From contig OMIW01000095.1 of NCBI GenBank assembly GCA_900299205.1, positions 1 through 18,412 of the forward strand: a stretch of 18,412 nucleotides of DNA. The letters run 5' to 3'. Origin of the DNA: Pseudomonadota bacterium (GTDB lineage Bacteria; Bdellovibrionota_C; UBA2361; OMIW01). Positions 2,392-9,021 of this stretch are shown one piece after another (positions within the stretch are counted from its first letter, which is position 1; the number at the start of each line of letters is the position of its first letter). The notes under the pieces are model-generated. The model did no database searches. It had not been told where the DNA came from and saw nothing but the letters and a program-made list of their open reading frames with translations. The position numbers and the translations under genes are program-made.

Positions 2392-4059
2392 GTGAACGCT
2401 GTACTACCGGTTCCATCGAAAGGATTGCCATCCCCGGAGGCAAACCTTAGCACTGCCTCTTTTCCCTTTTTCGATATCCTTGACCTGAAAACTGCGGTAG
2501 ACGCAACTACTCGCGCGGCTGTTGTTACTCACCTATCACCAGAAACGCTCGCGCACCGTGACCCATTAGTGATCCGCTCACTTATCGATGAATTGTGGGG
2601 ATACTGTCGTCAGCGAAAAGAACAGGAAGTTGGCCAAGCTTGGAAGCAGGAAAGATGCGGCGATGCCCTCTCGGCGGAGGAGGATCTCCTCTTCCCGGCC
2701 GTCATCACGTTACTTCACGCTGAGGCGATAGCTCTGTCGCCAAAAAGAGCGGTTGATGAACCCCATTTTGGGACCGCGCCAGAGGAACTTCTCACCAAAA
2801 ACCGGATAAGCGCGCAGCTCGATGAGATTATTGACCCGAGCAGACCGATCCCCCCCGATAGGTATGTATCAACAGGACTCTCAACCGATGGCAAACACAT
2901 CTTTGTCGTTCCTGATATCCACGGGAATTACGAACTGCTCCACAAGTCTCTCGACTACATCGGGCAGCAGCTCCGCGCGCAAGATATTGACCCCAAGAAT
3001 GTGGTTCTTGTTCAATTGGGAGATATTATCAATAAGGGCCCCGAATCAGCAAAAGCTTTGGGCGTGATGAATGCCCTCAAGGGGACAGATTCATCGTCAT
3101 CACTCTCCCGTGGCGAAGCGACTGGGGGATCGTTGTGCTTTGACTCCGTTGTGAAAAATCTCGGCCTTTCAGGAATTGGCGAAGTAGCTCTGCTGCGAGG
3201 CAATCACGAGGACTTAGGCAATCTCGGAATGCATCTTAACTCCGATGCCCCCATCGACGATTATGCTCGCGACACCTCTGACGCGCTCTTTCGGTATGGA
3301 CTTCGGGAAACCGTCCTCTCCGTCATTCGGGATTACCCCGATGCGTTTTCGCCTGAGGATGCGCGATGGCTCACTGCCGCCGTGGAATCGTTTCCGATAA
3401 GGGGTAACAACGATGACGGATGGTCCTGGAACAGAGTCCAAAAGCGAAATGCCGAGGGTGCACCTACTCAGGAAGAAGTGAGGACTTTTTTCGACACATT
3501 CAGGAGTATCTGGGGTCGAGGATTAGAGGAGAGCAGGCTCTCAGCATTTGCCGCCTCTCTCAAACCTGCGCACCGCGTCGGCGACTTTGTATTCACCCAT
3601 GCCGGTCCACCAAAAGATGCTCAACACATGCGCTCTTTGCAACAACACCTTGAACCAAACGGTGGTAATCCGCTACCGCAGCACACGTTGGACCACATTC
3701 TCAACGACCATTCGGCTTCTGACAAAAAACTTCTTGAAAAGATTACCGCAGCTCTTGGTCCAGCATCGGGCTTATCCTCTGTGCCCGCCGGCTTTGTCTT
3801 TGGACACACTCCCGGGGGATGTTTCGAGCTCTCGCAATCATCCGCTCCCCTCCTCGCGATCGGTCTCGACCTTGGCGTTGGTTCCTCAGGGCTTGCTCTT
3901 CCTCTCCTCCACATTAATCCCGACGGGCGGGCATCAATACTTCTCGCGCTCCGCTCTCACGATGGCATCGTGCCGGTTGCCGTCAATCCTGCCAGGTTCC
4001 TCCCTCCGGCGGGGCACTCTGGCCTGCCCGCTCGCGCGCCTATTCTCCGCCCCGCATGA
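2392..4059 (+). CDS. PPP/ApaH-like metallophosphoesterase
   Basis: A calcineurin-like phosphoesterase of the PPP/ApaH branch, predicted to hydrolyse phosphoesters with two metals. The motifs appear in order: PDIHGN (D175, H177), GDIINKGP (D211), RGNHED (N271, H272), THAGPP (H403) and FGHTPG (H472). Motif II lacks the second Asp seen in protein phosphatases (GDxxDRG); ApaH-type enzymes also vary there, so this need not mean loss of activity. The first ~165 residues precede the catalytic domain and match nothing I know. Between motifs III and IV there is a long insert (~130 residues). The GTG start is chosen because AAAGGG lies six bases upstream. A CGAGC/GCTCG inverted repeat sits just before that site. 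The substrate (protein, dinucleotide or other) is unknown. No signal peptide, so probably cytoplasmic. Confidence 0.85.
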   Translation: MNAVLPVPSKGLPSPEANLSTASFPFFDILDLKTAVDATTRAAVVTHLSPETLAHRDPLVIRSLIDELWGYCRQRKEQEVGQAWKQERCGDALSAEEDLLFPAVITLLHAEAIALSPKRAVDEPHFGTAPEELLTKNRISAQLDEIIDPSRPIPPDRYVSTGLSTDGKHIFVVPDIHGNYELLHKSLDYIGQQLRAQDIDPKNVVLVQLGDIINKGPESAKALGVMNALKGTDSSSSLSRGEATGGSLCFDSVVKNLGLSGIGEVALLRGNHEDLGNLGMHLNSDAPIDDYARDTSDALFRYGLRETVLSVIRDYPDAFSPEDARWLTAAVESFPIRGNNDDGWSWNRVQKRNAEGAPTQEEVRTFFDTFRSIWGRGLEESRLSAFAASLKPAHRVGDFVFTHAGPPKDAQHMRSLQQHLEPNGGNPLPQHTLDHILNDHSASDKKLLEKITAALGPASGLSSVPAGFVFGHTPGGCFELSQSSAPLLAIGLDLGVGSSGLALPLLHINPDGRASILLALRSHDGIVPVAVNPARFLPPAGHSGLPARAPILRPA

Positions 4060-4555
4060 ACCGCTCCATCCGCCGCACCGTCTGAGCACTCATGTGATGT
4101 TCAGCCCCCTCTGAATCGAGCTCAGCTATGCGACGCGGAACCCCGAGGAACAGGAGAAAATCTCGCACTATCTCGTGGCGTCGGCGCGACCGTCGCGCCA
4201 ATCGACGCCCCGAATCGGTAAGCTCGACCGGTTTATGTCGGGCAAGGACAACAAACCCCTCTTTCTCGAGCCGCTGCAACGTGCGAACCGCTGTCACATG
4301 AGAAACCCCATGCTCGGCGGCAATTCGGCCTACCCGGGCCTCCCCCTCCGTTTCGATAAGCCCGAGGACGAGCTCGGTATAATCCTCAGCCATCTCCCTG
4401 CCATGCTGAAGTCGGAGGGCATGGAACCTTCGGGAAGGAGAGGGGCGTTCAGGGGTTGATGCAGCGCGCTGAGTGTTCATTCGCGGCTCGTCCTCACAAG
4501 ACTCCCGACCTCGGGCATTCCGCCTACCCTCCGAACCCCTTTTTCTGATACTCAT
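4040..4555 (-). CDS. mntR: MntR-type DtxR-family metal-responsive repressor
   Basis: A cytoplasmic winged-helix regulator that binds DNA when loaded with Mn(II). Helix-turn-helix at about residues 72-103 (RIAAEHGVSHVTAVRTLQRL), wing to ~115, then a helical metal-binding and dimerisation domain. All six MntR metal ligands can be assigned: D58 and E61 (EDYTEL), H127 (RRHEIV), and E149, E152 and H153 (SEGAEHHMS). There is no SH3-like third domain, as in MntR rather than DtxR/IdeR. The start at 4555 gives 171 residues and follows GGGGA eight bases upstream. Met26 (4480), with GAGGA upstream, would give 146 residues and is also possible. It is divergent from the tro importer genes, and its predicted promoter overlaps a palindromic operator. 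Its 3' end overlaps the phosphoesterase gene by 20 bp. The function call is strong by motif and context. Confidence 0.9.
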   Translation of the reverse strand: MSIRKRGSEGRRNARGRESCEDEPRMNTQRAASTPERPSPSRRFHALRLQHGREMAEDYTELVLGLIETEGEARVGRIAAEHGVSHVTAVRTLQRLEKEGFVVLARHKPVELTDSGRRLARRSRRRHEIVRDFLLFLGVPRRIAELDSEGAEHHMSAQTVRRMERFMRGGE

Positions 4556-4569
4556 ACCAATATCCCCGG

Positions 4570-4598
4570 TTGACCATCGTTGTAGCCTACGCTACATT
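4570..4598 (+). promoter_or_regulatory. Predicted sigma70-like promoter of troABCD
   Basis: TTGACC (4570-4575), a 17-base spacer, then TACATT (4593-4598). The -10 is weak (4 of 6 matches). CATTAT at 4595-4600 is an alternative with a 19-base spacer. The spacer contains the MntR-like palindrome, so a bound repressor would block polymerase. Predicted by eye only. Confidence 0.5.
4581..4596. promoter_or_regulatory. Predicted MntR operator (perfect 16-bp palindrome)
   Basis: TGTAGC-CTAC-GCTACA: six-base arms separated by four bases, located between divergent mntR and troA. The core TAGC-N4-GCTA and the arm spacing match the MntR box known upstream of enterobacterial mntH (ATAGC-N4-GCTAT). It lies within the tro promoter spacer and over the -10/+1 region of the predicted mntR promoter, so one site could control both directions. 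That MntR binds it is an inference. Confidence 0.75.
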
Positions 4599-4624
4599 AT
4601 AAAGAAGAGGATTAATGAGGTAAA
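4596..4624 (-). promoter_or_regulatory. Predicted promoter of mntR
   Basis: On the minus strand: TTTACC (4624-4619), a 17-base spacer, then a consensus TATAAT (4601-4596). Transcription would start near 4589, inside the palindrome, leaving a leader of about 34 bases before the ATG at 4555. The layout predicts autorepression by MntR. Confidence 0.55.
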
Positions 4625-4640
4625 GGAGGATATCGCACCT

Positions 4641-5603
4641 GTGTTGACTTCGCTCATCGCCGTTATTTTCTCCCTGATAACGACCGTTGCTGCCCCGCTT
4701 GCTGCATCAGCTGAAACGCCACTCCGGGTGGTGACGACCACCGGCATGATAACCGACACCGTCCGCGAGATCGCTGGCGATAGAGTATCGCTCACGGGTC
4801 TGATGGGGGCGGGAGTGGACCCACACCTGTTCAAAGCGACTCGCTCAGATATAGCTCATCTAAGCTCCGCCGATATCGTTTTCTATAACGGACTTCTCCT
4901 CGAGGGAAAATTGATCGATGCGCTCGGCCGAATGAAAAGTGCGGGCAAGGCAGTACATCCTCTCGGCGAGCAAATCGAGCGCTCAGCTCTCAGGGAGCTC
5001 GACGGCTTTCCTGGTCAATTTGACCCACATATCTGGATGGATCCTCAAGCATGGGAGAAAATAGTTCCTGTTATCGCCCAAGCCCTCGCTGCAACCGATC
5101 CGACGGGTGCCTCCTCCTACCACTCTACGGCCATTCAGTATCAGGAGAAGCTCCGCGAGCTTGATCGGTATGCACTCCGTGTGCTCTCCAGCGTCCCACC
5201 TGAATCACGGGTACTCATCACAGCACACGACGCGTTTGGCTACTTCGGGCGGCGCTATGGATATACGGTTCGAGGTATCCAGGGTCTCTCTACCGAATCG
5301 GAGGCGGGTGTCAACGATATTGAACGGCTGGTCGACGAAATAGTTTCCCGTTCAATTAAGGCGGTATTCGTTGAAAGCACGGTTCCGAGCCGCTCAATAA
5401 CCGCCCTCATCGAAGGTGCTCAAGCACGGGGTCACTCCGTGACGATAGGGGGCCAATTGTTCTCAGATGCGATGGGAGCTAACGGGACATACGAAGGGAC
5501 CTACCTCGGTATGATCGATCACAACGTGACCACGATTGCTCGCTCTTTGGGTGGCAACGCCCCAGCGGATGGGATGAGTGGAAAATTAGCGGGAGCGCAC
5601 TGA
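4641..5603 (+). CDS. troA: TroA-type periplasmic metal-binding protein of an ABC importer
   Basis: A cluster A-I (ZnuA/TroA/PsaA) solute-binding protein that captures Mn(II) or Zn(II) outside the inner membrane and hands it to the permease. The GTG at 4641 is chosen because AAAGGAGG ends 11 bases upstream and a signal peptide begins at once: a hydrophobic core, then ASA|ET with cleavage after residue 24. Open frame extends upstream to 4473 but crosses the promoter and operator, so it is not the coding start. Metal ligands by family alignment are H62 (VDPHLF), H130 (DPHIWMDP), H196 (TAHDAFGYF) and D276 (LFSDAMG). This three-His/one-Asp set matches TroA rather than the Glu-containing PsaA/MntC set. 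Length is 320 residues, normal for the family. First gene of the tro operon. Confidence 0.93.
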   Translation: MLTSLIAVIFSLITTVAAPLAASAETPLRVVTTTGMITDTVREIAGDRVSLTGLMGAGVDPHLFKATRSDIAHLSSADIVFYNGLLLEGKLIDALGRMKSAGKAVHPLGEQIERSALRELDGFPGQFDPHIWMDPQAWEKIVPVIAQALAATDPTGASSYHSTAIQYQEKLRELDRYALRVLSSVPPESRVLITAHDAFGYFGRRYGYTVRGIQGLSTESEAGVNDIERLVDEIVSRSIKAVFVESTVPSRSITALIEGAQARGHSVTIGGQLFSDAMGANGTYEGTYLGMIDHNVTTIARSLGGNAPADGMSGKLAGAH

Positions 5604-5698
5604 TGAGAAAAAGATGCGATGGCCTCATCGACGGGGAACATCCATCGTAAGTATTCAGCCCAACTTTCTCATAGAGTTATTAGAAAGGGATCAAAAGC

Positions 5699-5761
5699 AT
5701 GGAAAGTTCGGTGATTTTGGAGGTTGTTGGAATTATATGGGTGAATAGATACCATCGATGA
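5699..5761 (+). CDS. Possible 20-residue leader peptide coupled to troB
   Basis: A tiny open frame starting [25 protein letters not shown] lies upstream, and its TGA overlaps the troB ATG (ATGA at 5758-5761). The troB start itself has no recognisable ribosome site, so translation of this frame could deliver ribosomes to troB. The peptide has no known relatives that I can recall. This is a translational-coupling hypothesis, not an established gene. Confidence 0.3.
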
Positions 5762-6573
5762 AGCTCTTCAGCCGAACTACTCCCGTTTCCTCGCTCGCCG
5801 GTCGACCGGAGCACAGTCCGACGAGCCCGCTCTCGGTTCATGCGATGACCGTCGCATACCATCAACGGCCCGTGATTTGGGATGTTGAATACGAAGCACC
5901 CGCTCAGGCACTCATCGCTATCGTGGGACCGAATGGTGCGGGAAAATCTACCTTCATGAAGGCATGCCTCGGAATTATCCCCCGTGCGACGGGGCTTGTC
6001 GAGTTCTGGGGAAAGCGATTCGAGGAACAACGACACCGCGTCGGATACGTTCCCCAACGGGAATCGGTCGATTGGGATTTCCCCGTGTCAGCCATCGATG
6101 TTGTGTGTATGGGGCGTTATGGAATGATCGGCTGGTTTCGACGGGTTTCACGAGAACACCGCAGTCGCGCCATGGAATGTCTCGAAATGGTCGGACTCTC
6201 CGATTTCGCTCACCGACAGATCAATCAACTCTCGGGAGGACAACAACAACGGGTATTTCTTGCTAGGGCGCTCGCTCAGGAAGCGTCGCTCTATTTTATG
6301 GATGAACCGTTTGCCGGAGTTGACGCAGCCACCGAGCGTTCGATCGTCGAAATACTCAAACAGCTGAAAGCGGATGGAAAAACTGTGATAGTTGTCCACC
6401 ACGATCTCTCCACGGTGGCTGACTACTTCGATAACGTGGTACTTCTAAATACCCGCATCATCGCGCACGGGCCTGTCTCCTCAACGTTCACCAACGATAA
6501 TCTTCGCCGCACTTATGGTGGGCGGCTGACGATCCTCGAAGAGGTGGGTGAATCGATGGCTTCTCAGCGGTAA
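5758..6573 (+). CDS. troB: ATPase subunit of the Tro-type metal ABC importer
   Basis: The cytoplasmic nucleotide-binding subunit that powers metal import. Walker A is GPNGAGKST (57-65), the Q-loop is Q100 (YVPQRE), the signature LSGGQQQR (158-165), Walker B MDEP with D182 and E183, the D-loop GVDA, and the switch His is H215 (VVHHD). The [12 protein letters not shown] stretch is typical of the Mn/Zn (TroB/MntB/ZnuC) branch. The 271-residue length is slightly above the usual ~250 because of about 25 extra N-terminal residues. Met30 (5845) is an alternative start but also lacks a ribosome site. The ATG at 5758 overlaps the stop of a 20-codon frame. It lies 154 bases after troA, a gap holding inverted repeats, and just before the first permease gene. 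Confidence 0.94.
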
Positions 6574-6583
6574 CGGCTTCTTT

Positions 6584-8071
6584 ATGGCGTTTTTCTCGGA
6601 ATCATCTCAGCTTGCTACCGAATTCGCCGATGCTTTTGCGGTGATGACGCTCCGGGCGGGTTTTAATACCGCCTTGGTGGTCATCGGAACTACCTGTCTC
6701 GGTGTGGCCGCGGGCGTGATCGGGACATTCTCACTCCTTCGCAAGCGGGCTCTGATGGCCGATGCTCTCGCCCACAGCGCACTTCCAGGGTTAGCCTTGG
6801 CGTTTATCCTCGGTTCGTTGCTCGGAATCGGAGGGAAACAGCTCTGGCTTCTCCTGGCAGGAGCCGCAATCTCGGGGGTGCTAGGGGTCCTTATCGTACA
6901 AGGGATATCACGCACCACCCGCATTCAGGAGGATTGCGCGATCGCCGCTGTCCTAAGCGTCTTTTTCGGCGCGGGGGTAGTTCTCCTCAGCATCATTCAG
7001 GGGATGGGTACTGGCGAAGAGGGGGGCCTCCACCACTTTATTTATGGGCAGACCGCTGCAATGACCCGGGGTGATGCTCTCCTCACCCTCATGGCTGCAG
7101 TGGCAACGATCATGGTGTGCACCCTTACTTTTAAAGAATTCCGTCTTATCTGCTTTGATCGAGGATTTGCTGCCGCGACCGGATGGCCAATCTCGACGAT
7201 AGATTTTGCGATGATGGCGATGGTTATTCTTATCACAGTGGTGGGTCTCCAATCGGTCGGGATCTTATTGATCGTTGCTCTGCTGGTTATTCCCCCCGCA
7301 GGTGCTCGTTTTTGGACGAATCGGGTCTCGACTATGATTCCGCTTGCGGGATGTATCGGAGGGGTAAGCGGATATCTTGGCTCCGTCGCCTCGGCACTTC
7401 TGCCAGGAATTCCGGTGGGAGCAGTTATTGTGCTAGTGGCGGGGGGGGTGTTCTTTTTCAGCATGATCGCCTCACCGACTCGGGGGCTCCTTGGTTCGAC
7501 CGCTCGACACCTCTGGATGCGGATTCGGATCGCAGAGGATCACCTATTGCGGGGAATCTATGAACGAAGTGAACAGATGGCATCCTCGGCCGAACCTCAT
7601 CCAGGAGTGTATCTGGATAGTCTTGCTCTAACCCGCCACTGGAACTGGCTCGGTCGGCTGCTTTTCCTTTCGTGGTGCCGCGCAAGGGGATGGATAGAGA
7701 TTCGTCGCGACAAGATGAAGCCCGAAGAAGCCCCCGACAGAGAAGAGGCCCCCTTCGGAACGATCCTTCTTTTGACCCCTCGAGGTTGGGAGCAGGCGGG
7801 TCGTCGGGTCCGTAATCACCGACTCTGGGAGGAGTATCTAACCACCTTCACTGATGTCGCACTCTCACACGTCGATTACTCCGCCGACCTCGTTGAACAC
7901 TCCTTATCTCCCACGATCATCGCTCAGCTCGAGGCGAGCCTCGCCACGCGAAAAGGGGCTGCATGGCTTCTCCGCAAGCATCGGAGTATTCATCCTCTCG
8001 ATGGCACACCAGAAACAAGAGCCTCCCAACCCGAAAATCACCCCGACAATATCCCTCCCCCGTCACGGTAG
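6584..8071 (+). CDS. troC: Metal ABC importer permease fused to a C-terminal DtxR-like domain
   Basis: An inner-membrane permease of the ABC-3 (TroC/ZnuB/MntB) family with a long cytoplasmic tail. Residues ~1-290 hold about eight hydrophobic helices and the family signature around LLRKRALMADALAHSALPG. Residues ~310-450 resemble a DtxR-family regulator: a winged-helix-like part (LTRHWNWLGRLLFLSWCRARGW, then LLLTPRGWEQAGRR) and a metal-binding/dimerisation part containing RNHRLWEEYL (H412) and SADLVEHSLSP (D435, E438, H439). These align with H77, E99, E102 and H103 of Bacillus MntR. The tail ends in a Pro/Asn-rich stretch. Plain permeases are ~280-300 residues; this one is 495. The ATG at 6584 is 10 bases after troB; a GTG at 6548 overlapping troB is an alternative. 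Permease-DtxR-like fusions are, as I recall, known in other phyla; their role is unsettled. Confidence 0.9.
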   Translation: MAFFSESSQLATEFADAFAVMTLRAGFNTALVVIGTTCLGVAAGVIGTFSLLRKRALMADALAHSALPGLALAFILGSLLGIGGKQLWLLLAGAAISGVLGVLIVQGISRTTRIQEDCAIAAVLSVFFGAGVVLLSIIQGMGTGEEGGLHHFIYGQTAAMTRGDALLTLMAAVATIMVCTLTFKEFRLICFDRGFAAATGWPISTIDFAMMAMVILITVVGLQSVGILLIVALLVIPPAGARFWTNRVSTMIPLAGCIGGVSGYLGSVASALLPGIPVGAVIVLVAGGVFFFSMIASPTRGLLGSTARHLWMRIRIAEDHLLRGIYERSEQMASSAEPHPGVYLDSLALTRHWNWLGRLLFLSWCRARGWIEIRRDKMKPEEAPDREEAPFGTILLLTPRGWEQAGRRVRNHRLWEEYLTTFTDVALSHVDYSADLVEHSLSPTIIAQLEASLATRKGAAWLLRKHRSIHPLDGTPETRASQPENHPDNIPPPSR

Positions 8072-8079
8072 GTATTTTC

Positions 8080-9021
8080 ATGGACTCGACGATTTATCAA
8101 TTTATCGCTCTCGACCTCCCTCCCCTTCTTGCCGCCCTTTTTTCAGCCATCGCCTGCGCCATCCTCGGTAGCTACCTCGTCCTGCGCCGCCAAAGTCTGC
8201 TCGGTGATGCGATATCTCACTCCGTCCTTCCTGGCATCGTCGTTGCCTTTCTCGTGACTGGCTCACGGTCGACTATACCGATCTTCATCGGGGCTGCGGT
8301 TGCGGGGATATGCAGCGCATTTCTGATCGAGGTTGTCCGAAAGTTCGGCAATGTCGACGAAAGCGCCGCGATGGGGGTCATCTTTTCAACCTTTTTTGCA
8401 CTCGGCATCCTTACCATGGAGCAGGCCGCCGCGCGCAATGTCGATCTTGACCCAGACTGCCTTCTCCATGGTCAGCTGGAAACGATCTTCTGGTACCCTC
8501 CCAATGACTGGGCAACATTTTTCTCCTGGTCGACCCTCGGCTCAGTTCCGGCTGAGGTGTATGCCAGTGCCATCGCCGCTTTTCTCGTGATCGGATTTGT
8601 CGTGGTCCTTTGGAAGGAACTTCTCATTTCGTCATTCGATCCTGCGCTCTGTCACGCCCTTGGATTCCGAAGCGACCTCATTCATCACACCCTCATGGTG
8701 CTCCTCGCCTGTGCTGTCGTTGCCTCGTTCAAGACGGTTGGATCGATCCTCGTCATTGCCCTTCTCGTATGCCCTGCCGCGACGGCGCGACTCTGCACCG
8801 ATCGGCTTGGAGTACACCTCATCCTCAGCGTGGTATTTGCATGTGTCGCATGTAGCACAGGCTACATTACTGCAGCATTCGGTCCACAATGGCTTGGTTA
8901 TGAGCAATCGGTGAATGTCGCAGGGATGATCGCCGTCATGAGTGGCGTATTGCTCGGGGGGGCGGCCTGTTTCGCGCCACGGTATGGAATTGTTGCTCGG
9001 CGGCGCACTGGTCGCCGATAA
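8080..9021 (+). CDS. troD: Second permease subunit of the Tro-type metal ABC importer
   Basis: An ABC-3 family inner-membrane permease of 313 residues with about eight hydrophobic helices. The hallmark GSYLVLRRQSLLGDAISHSVLPG lies near residues 28-50, and the SFKTVGSILVIALLVCPAATARL region follows later. The ATG at 8080 is eight bases after the troC stop and has GGTAGG upstream. An in-frame ATG at 7963 would add 39 non-membrane residues overlapping troC and is unlikely. Together the two permeases form the TroCD pore. Unlike troC this one has no regulatory tail. A perfect copy of the MntR-like palindrome arms lies inside the gene at 8851-8866. An AAGGAGG follows the stop codon with no obvious gene behind it. 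Confidence 0.92.
   Translation: MDSTIYQFIALDLPPLLAALFSAIACAILGSYLVLRRQSLLGDAISHSVLPGIVVAFLVTGSRSTIPIFIGAAVAGICSAFLIEVVRKFGNVDESAAMGVIFSTFFALGILTMEQAAARNVDLDPDCLLHGQLETIFWYPPNDWATFFSWSTLGSVPAEVYASAIAAFLVIGFVVVLWKELLISSFDPALCHALGFRSDLIHHTLMVLLACAVVASFKTVGSILVIALLVCPAATARLCTDRLGVHLILSVVFACVACSTGYITAAFGPQWLGYEQSVNVAGMIAVMSGVLLGGAACFAPRYGIVARRRTGRR
8851..8866. promoter_or_regulatory. Second copy of the MntR-like palindrome, inside troD
   Basis: TGTAGC-ACAG-GCTACA, with all 12 arm bases identical to the site at 4581-4596 and the next three bases (TTA) also shared. It encodes Cys-Ser-Thr-Gly-Tyr within a late helix of TroD. Part of the match could come from coding constraint, but the exact arms and spacing are striking. 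Function is inferred. Confidence 0.45.

Follow-up and report, generated by a model that had tools for sequence, protein, structure and literature searches.

Gene content of the locus

The window, that is, the whole stretch of DNA analysed (18,412 nucleotides), includes an operon on the + strand with genes in the order SBP-ATPase-permease C-permease D, where SBP is a substrate-binding protein, and a divergently oriented gene for a soluble MntR (Table 1). The start of the SBP gene, read from the sequence, is a GTG that follows AAAGGAGG. No additional Pfam domain was found in the 271 aa ABC ATPase. Permease C is encoded by a single uninterrupted frame from the ATG at 6584 to the stop at 8071, and its ABC-3 domain, encoded in an SBP-ATPase-permease operon, places it among the ABC-3 (TroC/PsaC) importers. 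A gene for a calcineurin-like phosphoesterase (2392-4059; Pfam Metallophos E 3.5e-9) adjoins mntR.

Table 1. Features of the operon and its surroundings (window positions 4040 to 9021).
Feature	Position	Strand	Evidence or remark
Soluble MntR (DtxR family, E. coli MntR-like)	4040..4555	-	Pfam Fe_dep_repress 7.6e-7, Fe_dep_repr_C 1.8e-11
Palindrome TGTAGCCTACGCTACA	4581..4596	.	between mntR and the SBP gene
Substrate-binding protein, ZnuA/TroA family	4641..5603	+	Pfam ZnuA 2.9e-73
ABC ATPase	5758..6573	+	ABC_tran 7.5e-26; top NCBIfam matches are Mn/Fe ABC ATPases
Permease C with C-terminal DtxR-like tail, 495 aa	6584..8071	+	
ABC-3 transmembrane domain, residues 32-296	6677..7471	+	Pfam E 4.2e-52; PsaC 7kyp_F, structural Z 33.1
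Helix 302-332, permease C-terminal helix into DtxR alpha1, with H320 (codon 7541-7543)	7487..7579	+	
Degenerate winged helix, residues 348-397, with lineage-specific wing insertion	7625..7774	+	predicted fold
Metal-binding/dimerisation domain Fe_dep_repr_C, residues 398-454	7775..7945	+	H412, E416, D431, D435, E438, H439
Low-confidence C-terminal extension, residues 458-495	7955..8068	+	SxHPL motif common to close C-tails
Permease D, tail-less here	8080..9021	+	first tail residues only (APRYGIVAR...), then stop

Fold and attachment of the tail of permease C

The membrane part of permease C also matches PsaC in sequence (E 1e-30). Beyond it, a preliminary description of this DNA had assigned about 200 C-terminal residues to a winged helix followed by a DtxR domain. 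The fold was supported by Pfam, with Fe_dep_repr_C detected at an E-value of 1.2e-10 (41.7 bits against a cut-off of 27), and by AlphaFold2, which drew a winged helix and DtxR domain 2 (pLDDT 80 for a model of the tail only and 85 for full-length permease C). However, only ~155 residues (302-457) are folded in the models, residues 458-495 being of low confidence. Overlay of the predicted tail on known structures, proposed in the same description, identified DtxR, MntR and IdeR as the nearest (Z 11.7-12.8, 2.3-2.8 Å, 119-129 residues), with a best Z of 11.7 (128 residues) for the tail-only model and 12.8 (129 residues) for the full-length model. A sequence search of the PDB with the tail returned DtxR-family proteins only, and as the E-values were weak (best 0.016), the fold of the tail was settled by the AlphaFold2 models. 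The winged helix is recognised by fold, with no match of the tail to a Pfam HTH family. An insertion of ~14 residues (KPEEAPDREEAPFG) in the wing, at window positions 7700-7770, is absent from relatives.

The last transmembrane helix ends at residue 296 and is followed by a five-residue hinge (297-301) with an invariant G301, directly after which helix 302-332 starts. The junction between the two helices has a pLDDT of about 90 in the full-length AlphaFold2 model, in which no flexible linker separates the membrane part from the tail. Given this short hinge, the permease's last helix runs on directly as DtxR helix alpha1. The C-terminal helix of PsaC aligns as far as residue 318 of permease C, and alpha1 thus appears to have been grafted onto a helix that the permease already possessed. 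An origin of the tail by chance or through a frameshift artefact was ruled out by the one open frame and by the homologous tails found at numerous loci, both within the phylum and outside it.

Metal-binding residues

The tail carries the metal-binding/dimerisation domain of the DtxR/MntR family with equivalents of its H, E, E, H ligands, and is homologous to DtxR, with the DtxR ligand set retained. Numbered from the ATG at 6584, H412, D435, E438 and H439 fall exactly at the positions of MntR H77, E99, E102 and H103, as had been proposed. The predicted set further includes H320, E416 and D431, the last two at the positions of DtxR E83 and H98, respectively. The N-terminal ligands of MntR (D8 and E11) had been considered not evident, which holds for E11, its position being occupied by R323, but not for D8. 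In the structural alignment (ranges 313->3 and 314->2), residue 320, a histidine, corresponds to position 10 of DtxR (M10) and position 8 of MntR, and the tail-only model gives the same offset. On this alignment H320 may be the N-terminal ligand, and nearly all relatives have H, N or D at the equivalent position.

Across four genome groups, the equivalents of DtxR H79 and E83 were each kept in 124/126 tails; the E105-H106 pair, which served as the anchor of the tail search, was absent in only a few. Positions 10/98/102 are H-D-D in the clade of the window, N-H-E in Chlamydiota and some others and D-H-E/M in the tails of permease D (the labels Chlamydiota and Planctomycetota for genome groups are inferred from locus features and locus L008). 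Positions 10 and 98 change together (Fisher p 2e-17), but this was rejected as evidence of co-evolution, because on the tree the H/D swap traces essentially to a single lineage and hence provides no independent evidence. Given the neighbouring mntR gene, the metal bound would most likely be Mn2+, with Fe2+ or Zn2+ as possible alternatives.

Conservation of the DNA-reading part

Fe_dep_repr_C was detected in 20/20 C-tails and 17/17 D-tails of the own phylum and Phycisphaerae, and Fe_dep_repress, the N-terminal DNA-binding domain, in 0/37 of these tails, nor was it detected in that of the window. The soluble MntRs had both domains in 17/17. The missing Pfam match for the DNA-reading part (HTH) is nevertheless a weak argument, insufficient as proof of lost DNA binding, since chlamydial YtgCR, a reported DNA binder, likewise has none. 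Comparison with shuffled sequences and at matched identity was therefore used in its place.

The mean pairwise HTH identity of the own-phylum C-tails, a comparison of 12 sequences with few close pairs, was 0.114 versus 0.108 ± 0.010 for shuffled sequences; for the metal domain and the transmembrane domain the identities were 0.385 and 0.45. Tails of Chlamydiota gave an HTH identity of 0.27 versus 0.085 shuffled, and the soluble MntRs of the own phylum gave 0.50. At a transmembrane identity of 60-75%, the HTH values were 0.21 versus 0.20 shuffled in the own phylum (six pairs) and 0.43 versus 0.21 in Chlamydiota (54 pairs). Thus, the HTH of the own-phylum tails stands at the shuffled level even among close relatives, unlike that of Chlamydiota, which is well above it. 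To the extent that sequence can show it, the own phylum has lost the constraint on DNA reading and has retained that on the metal domain.

The soluble MntR and its probable operator

The preliminary description had also noted a complete soluble MntR at the locus. Both Pfam domains are indeed present in the product of the divergent gene, which is predicted to regulate transcription of the locus as a separate protein, and a soluble MntR accompanies the operon in nearly all relatives. In 17 neighbouring MntRs, all six MntR ligands and the recognition helix are conserved. The palindrome TGTAGC-N4-GCTACA occurs in 11 of the 14 mntR/SBP intergenic regions examined, and the copy at 4581-4596 is the probable MntR operator. 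Hence, the fused domain is not the sole DtxR-type regulator encoded with the operon, and a conserved MntR with a conserved operator would make the tail dispensable as the operon's repressor here. Chlamydial operons, in contrast, have no soluble MntR, and a second DtxR is rare in Chlamydiota.

A second exact copy of the palindrome lies within the coding region of permease D (8851-8866). A genome-wide MntR regulon could not be derived from the pattern, as the three other exact matches, off the contig, are beside no evident metal genes, and a reversed control pattern has about as many genomic matches. Away from the operon, the genome has another gene for a soluble regulator of the DtxR family in which both Pfam domains are found (L063:6494-6970, G000 contig C194).

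Distribution and history of the fusions

Matches to the fusion were found in 21 of the 45 own-phylum genomes searched. Among whole operons of this phylum, both permeases are tailed in 11, C only in 5 (with that of the window), D only in 3 and neither in 1. Fusions, often on both permeases of one transporter, were also found in Planctomycetota, and others occur in further groups of genomes. In Chlamydiota, 137/151 genomes have a match, and in the 30 loci read, permease C alone carries the tail.

Homology between the C- and D-tails extends along their whole length (hhalign E 2.9e-34). On the tail tree, the C-tails make up one clade (47 rows, 98/96), and the other half contains the D-tails together with soluble DtxR sequences. 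On this topology, the tails would have been associated with their own permease for long. The tail of the window belongs to the clade of the YtgR tails but to a separate subclade. In permease D of the window, the stop codon comes just behind the start of a tail (APRYGIVAR), which suggests tail loss; 3' of the gene, no remnant past these residues was found.

Two loci encode permeases fused to a complete three-domain DtxR (L073:3039-4790, - strand, and L076:4259-6604), with a better-kept HTH, a metal domain and a FeoA/SH3 domain, and these are perhaps near the ancestral fusion. Three other proteins have DtxR-like and FeoA domains without an ABC permease (L083:5000-6121, - strand; L082:4849-5949; L081:4354-6123, - strand). 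That of L083 has a single hydrophobic N-terminal stretch and then a tail-like PRWGVLARI junction. Such proteins may be DtxR-FeoA proteins anchored in the membrane, with a soluble DtxR alongside.

Comparison with known systems

In two reports (PMC5599777; PMC7755916), Chlamydia YtgCR (CT069, ytgABCD) is described as an ABC permease-DtxR fusion that is cleaved to release YtgR, a DNA-binding, iron-dependent repressor. Locus L078 was taken to be chlamydial YtgCR based on its operon order (SBP-ATPase-CR-D), WWW motif, 66 leucines and 2.46% tryptophan; PMC7755916 gives WWW, 66 leucines and 2.44% tryptophan. Permease C is 25% identical to YtgCR over 439 residues, and likewise consists of a C-type ABC-3 permease with a C-terminal DtxR-like domain of the YtgR tail clade, encoded in an SBP-ATPase-C(R)-D operon; the equivalents of H79, E83, E105 and H106 are kept in both. 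Unlike YtgCR, the window has a separate complete MntR, and its tail belongs to another subclade, with H-D-D where the YtgCR side has mostly N-H-E, an HTH that is not conserved among relatives and no DPHxxxIP motif at its end. YtgR is reported to be released by cleavage and to bind DNA, which the tail of the window is not known to do. The earlier statement that the function of such fusions is not established applies to the lineage of the window but not to YtgCR, given the published work.

The tail shares its fold, metal-binding domain and ligand positions with soluble MntR, DtxR and IdeR, but is attached to the membrane, lacks an HTH family match and has R at the MntR E11 position. The transmembrane domain is that of PsaC/TroC/ZnuB (ABC-3) permeases, although the solved ABC-3 permeases have no DtxR-like tail. 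In MetNI (C2 domain) and M. acetivorans ModABC, a cytoplasmic C-terminal ligand-binding domain is proposed to stop import by trans-inhibition (PMC10710835). The tail is likewise a cytoplasmic C-terminal part, and its architecture and conserved ligands would be compatible with trans-inhibition; however, the regulatory domain of MetNI and ModABC is on the ATPase and has another fold, whereas here a DtxR-like domain is on permease C. A search of the accessible literature found no description of the double-tailed form, of non-chlamydial fusions or of the HTH loss.

Proposed function of the tail

Since the metal-binding part is preserved and the DNA-reading part is near-random, the tail probably senses intracellular metal and acts as a brake on the importer. 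By a modest balance of the evidence, it descends from a DtxR-type repressor and has been kept in the importer as a cytoplasmic metal sensor with an allosteric role (trans-inhibition). We infer metal binding from the conserved ligands, and gating in turn from metal binding. In DtxR, metal clamps alpha1 to domain 2. In the tail, plentiful cytoplasmic metal would bind between alpha1 (H320) and domain 2 (D435/E438/H439, with H412/E416/D431) and clamp the two in the same way, thereby fixing the C-terminal helix of the permease. Via the short hinge or a tail-tail contact, the permease or the ATPases would then be held in a non-transporting state, and transcription of the operon would be left to the separate MntR at the 4581 site. 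In double-tailed transporters, the two tails could associate with each other across the transporter, as the subunits of a DtxR dimer do. With only one permease tailed in the window, such an internal dimer would not be general, and the single tail must suffice in this transporter.

Two functions had been put forward in the preliminary description, gating of transport by cytoplasmic metal and tethering of operator DNA to the membrane. The former is the better supported, given the kept ligands, the lost HTH sequence, the five-residue junction to the last transmembrane helix, the tails on both permeases in most related transporters and the adjoining complete MntR and conserved operator. Tethering in the own lineage is disfavoured, but has some room, as YtgR is a reported DNA-binding repressor even though its HTH misses the Pfam model. 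An HTH may therefore diverge and still bind DNA. That homologue and the winged helix still drawn by AlphaFold are among the points against the sensor reading, as are the single tail of the window and the small number of sequences in the HTH comparison. The homologue and the winged helix would also favour a tail that, cleaved or membrane-bound, binds DNA with metal and represses its own or another operon, as described for YtgR of the same C-tail clade (PMC5599777; PMC7755916). We regard such a repressor as unlikely here, because the HTH is unconstrained in the own phylum and constrained in Chlamydiota, a complete MntR and a conserved operator are at hand where Chlamydiota rarely have a second DtxR, and the junction to the membrane part has no flexible linker.

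The ligand-rich domain, which lies just where the last transmembrane helix reaches the cytoplasm and has kept its ligands, could also catch metal leaving the permease and pass it on or buffer it, without gating of transport. Closure of the site between two domains, as in DtxR, would be better suited to a switch than to metal transfer, however, and there is no known exchange partner, so that a hand-off or sink is rather improbable. There is a slightly smaller chance still that the tail is an assembly or stability module, pairing subunits or transporters, with a structural metal site. DtxR dimerises through its domain 2 and both permeases are often tailed, but several genomes, including that of the window, have a single tail, and the ligand set is reshuffled between lineages, which would be odd for a purely structural site without excluding it.

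Significance

A permease-DtxR fusion was already known from Chlamydia. New here are the wide spread of the fusions, the frequent tails on both permeases in the own phylum and Planctomycetota, the near-invariant ligands, including H320, the HTH that in the own phylum, unlike in Chlamydia, is no more conserved than shuffled sequence, and the MntR with its operator beside the operon. These fusions may represent widespread ABC metal importers with DtxR-fold domains, often one per permease, that have lost DNA binding and serve as an on-board off-switch, with YtgR as a branch that kept or regained a repressor role; this broader reading is put forward tentatively, the chances being somewhat short of even.

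The shut-off of Mn/Zn/Fe ABC importers when the cytoplasm is full of metal is mostly explained by transcription, and related fusions are so far known to act only through the switching of genes. Throttling of the importer itself would therefore be new. If the sensor reading is true, a DtxR-type sensor in the permease would be an immediate post-translational brake, and a gene repressor would have been re-used as an allosteric domain of a transporter. YtgCR would no longer be a peculiarity of Chlamydia but a single branch within a broad family, and non-pathogenic systems would become available for the study of permease-DtxR fusions.
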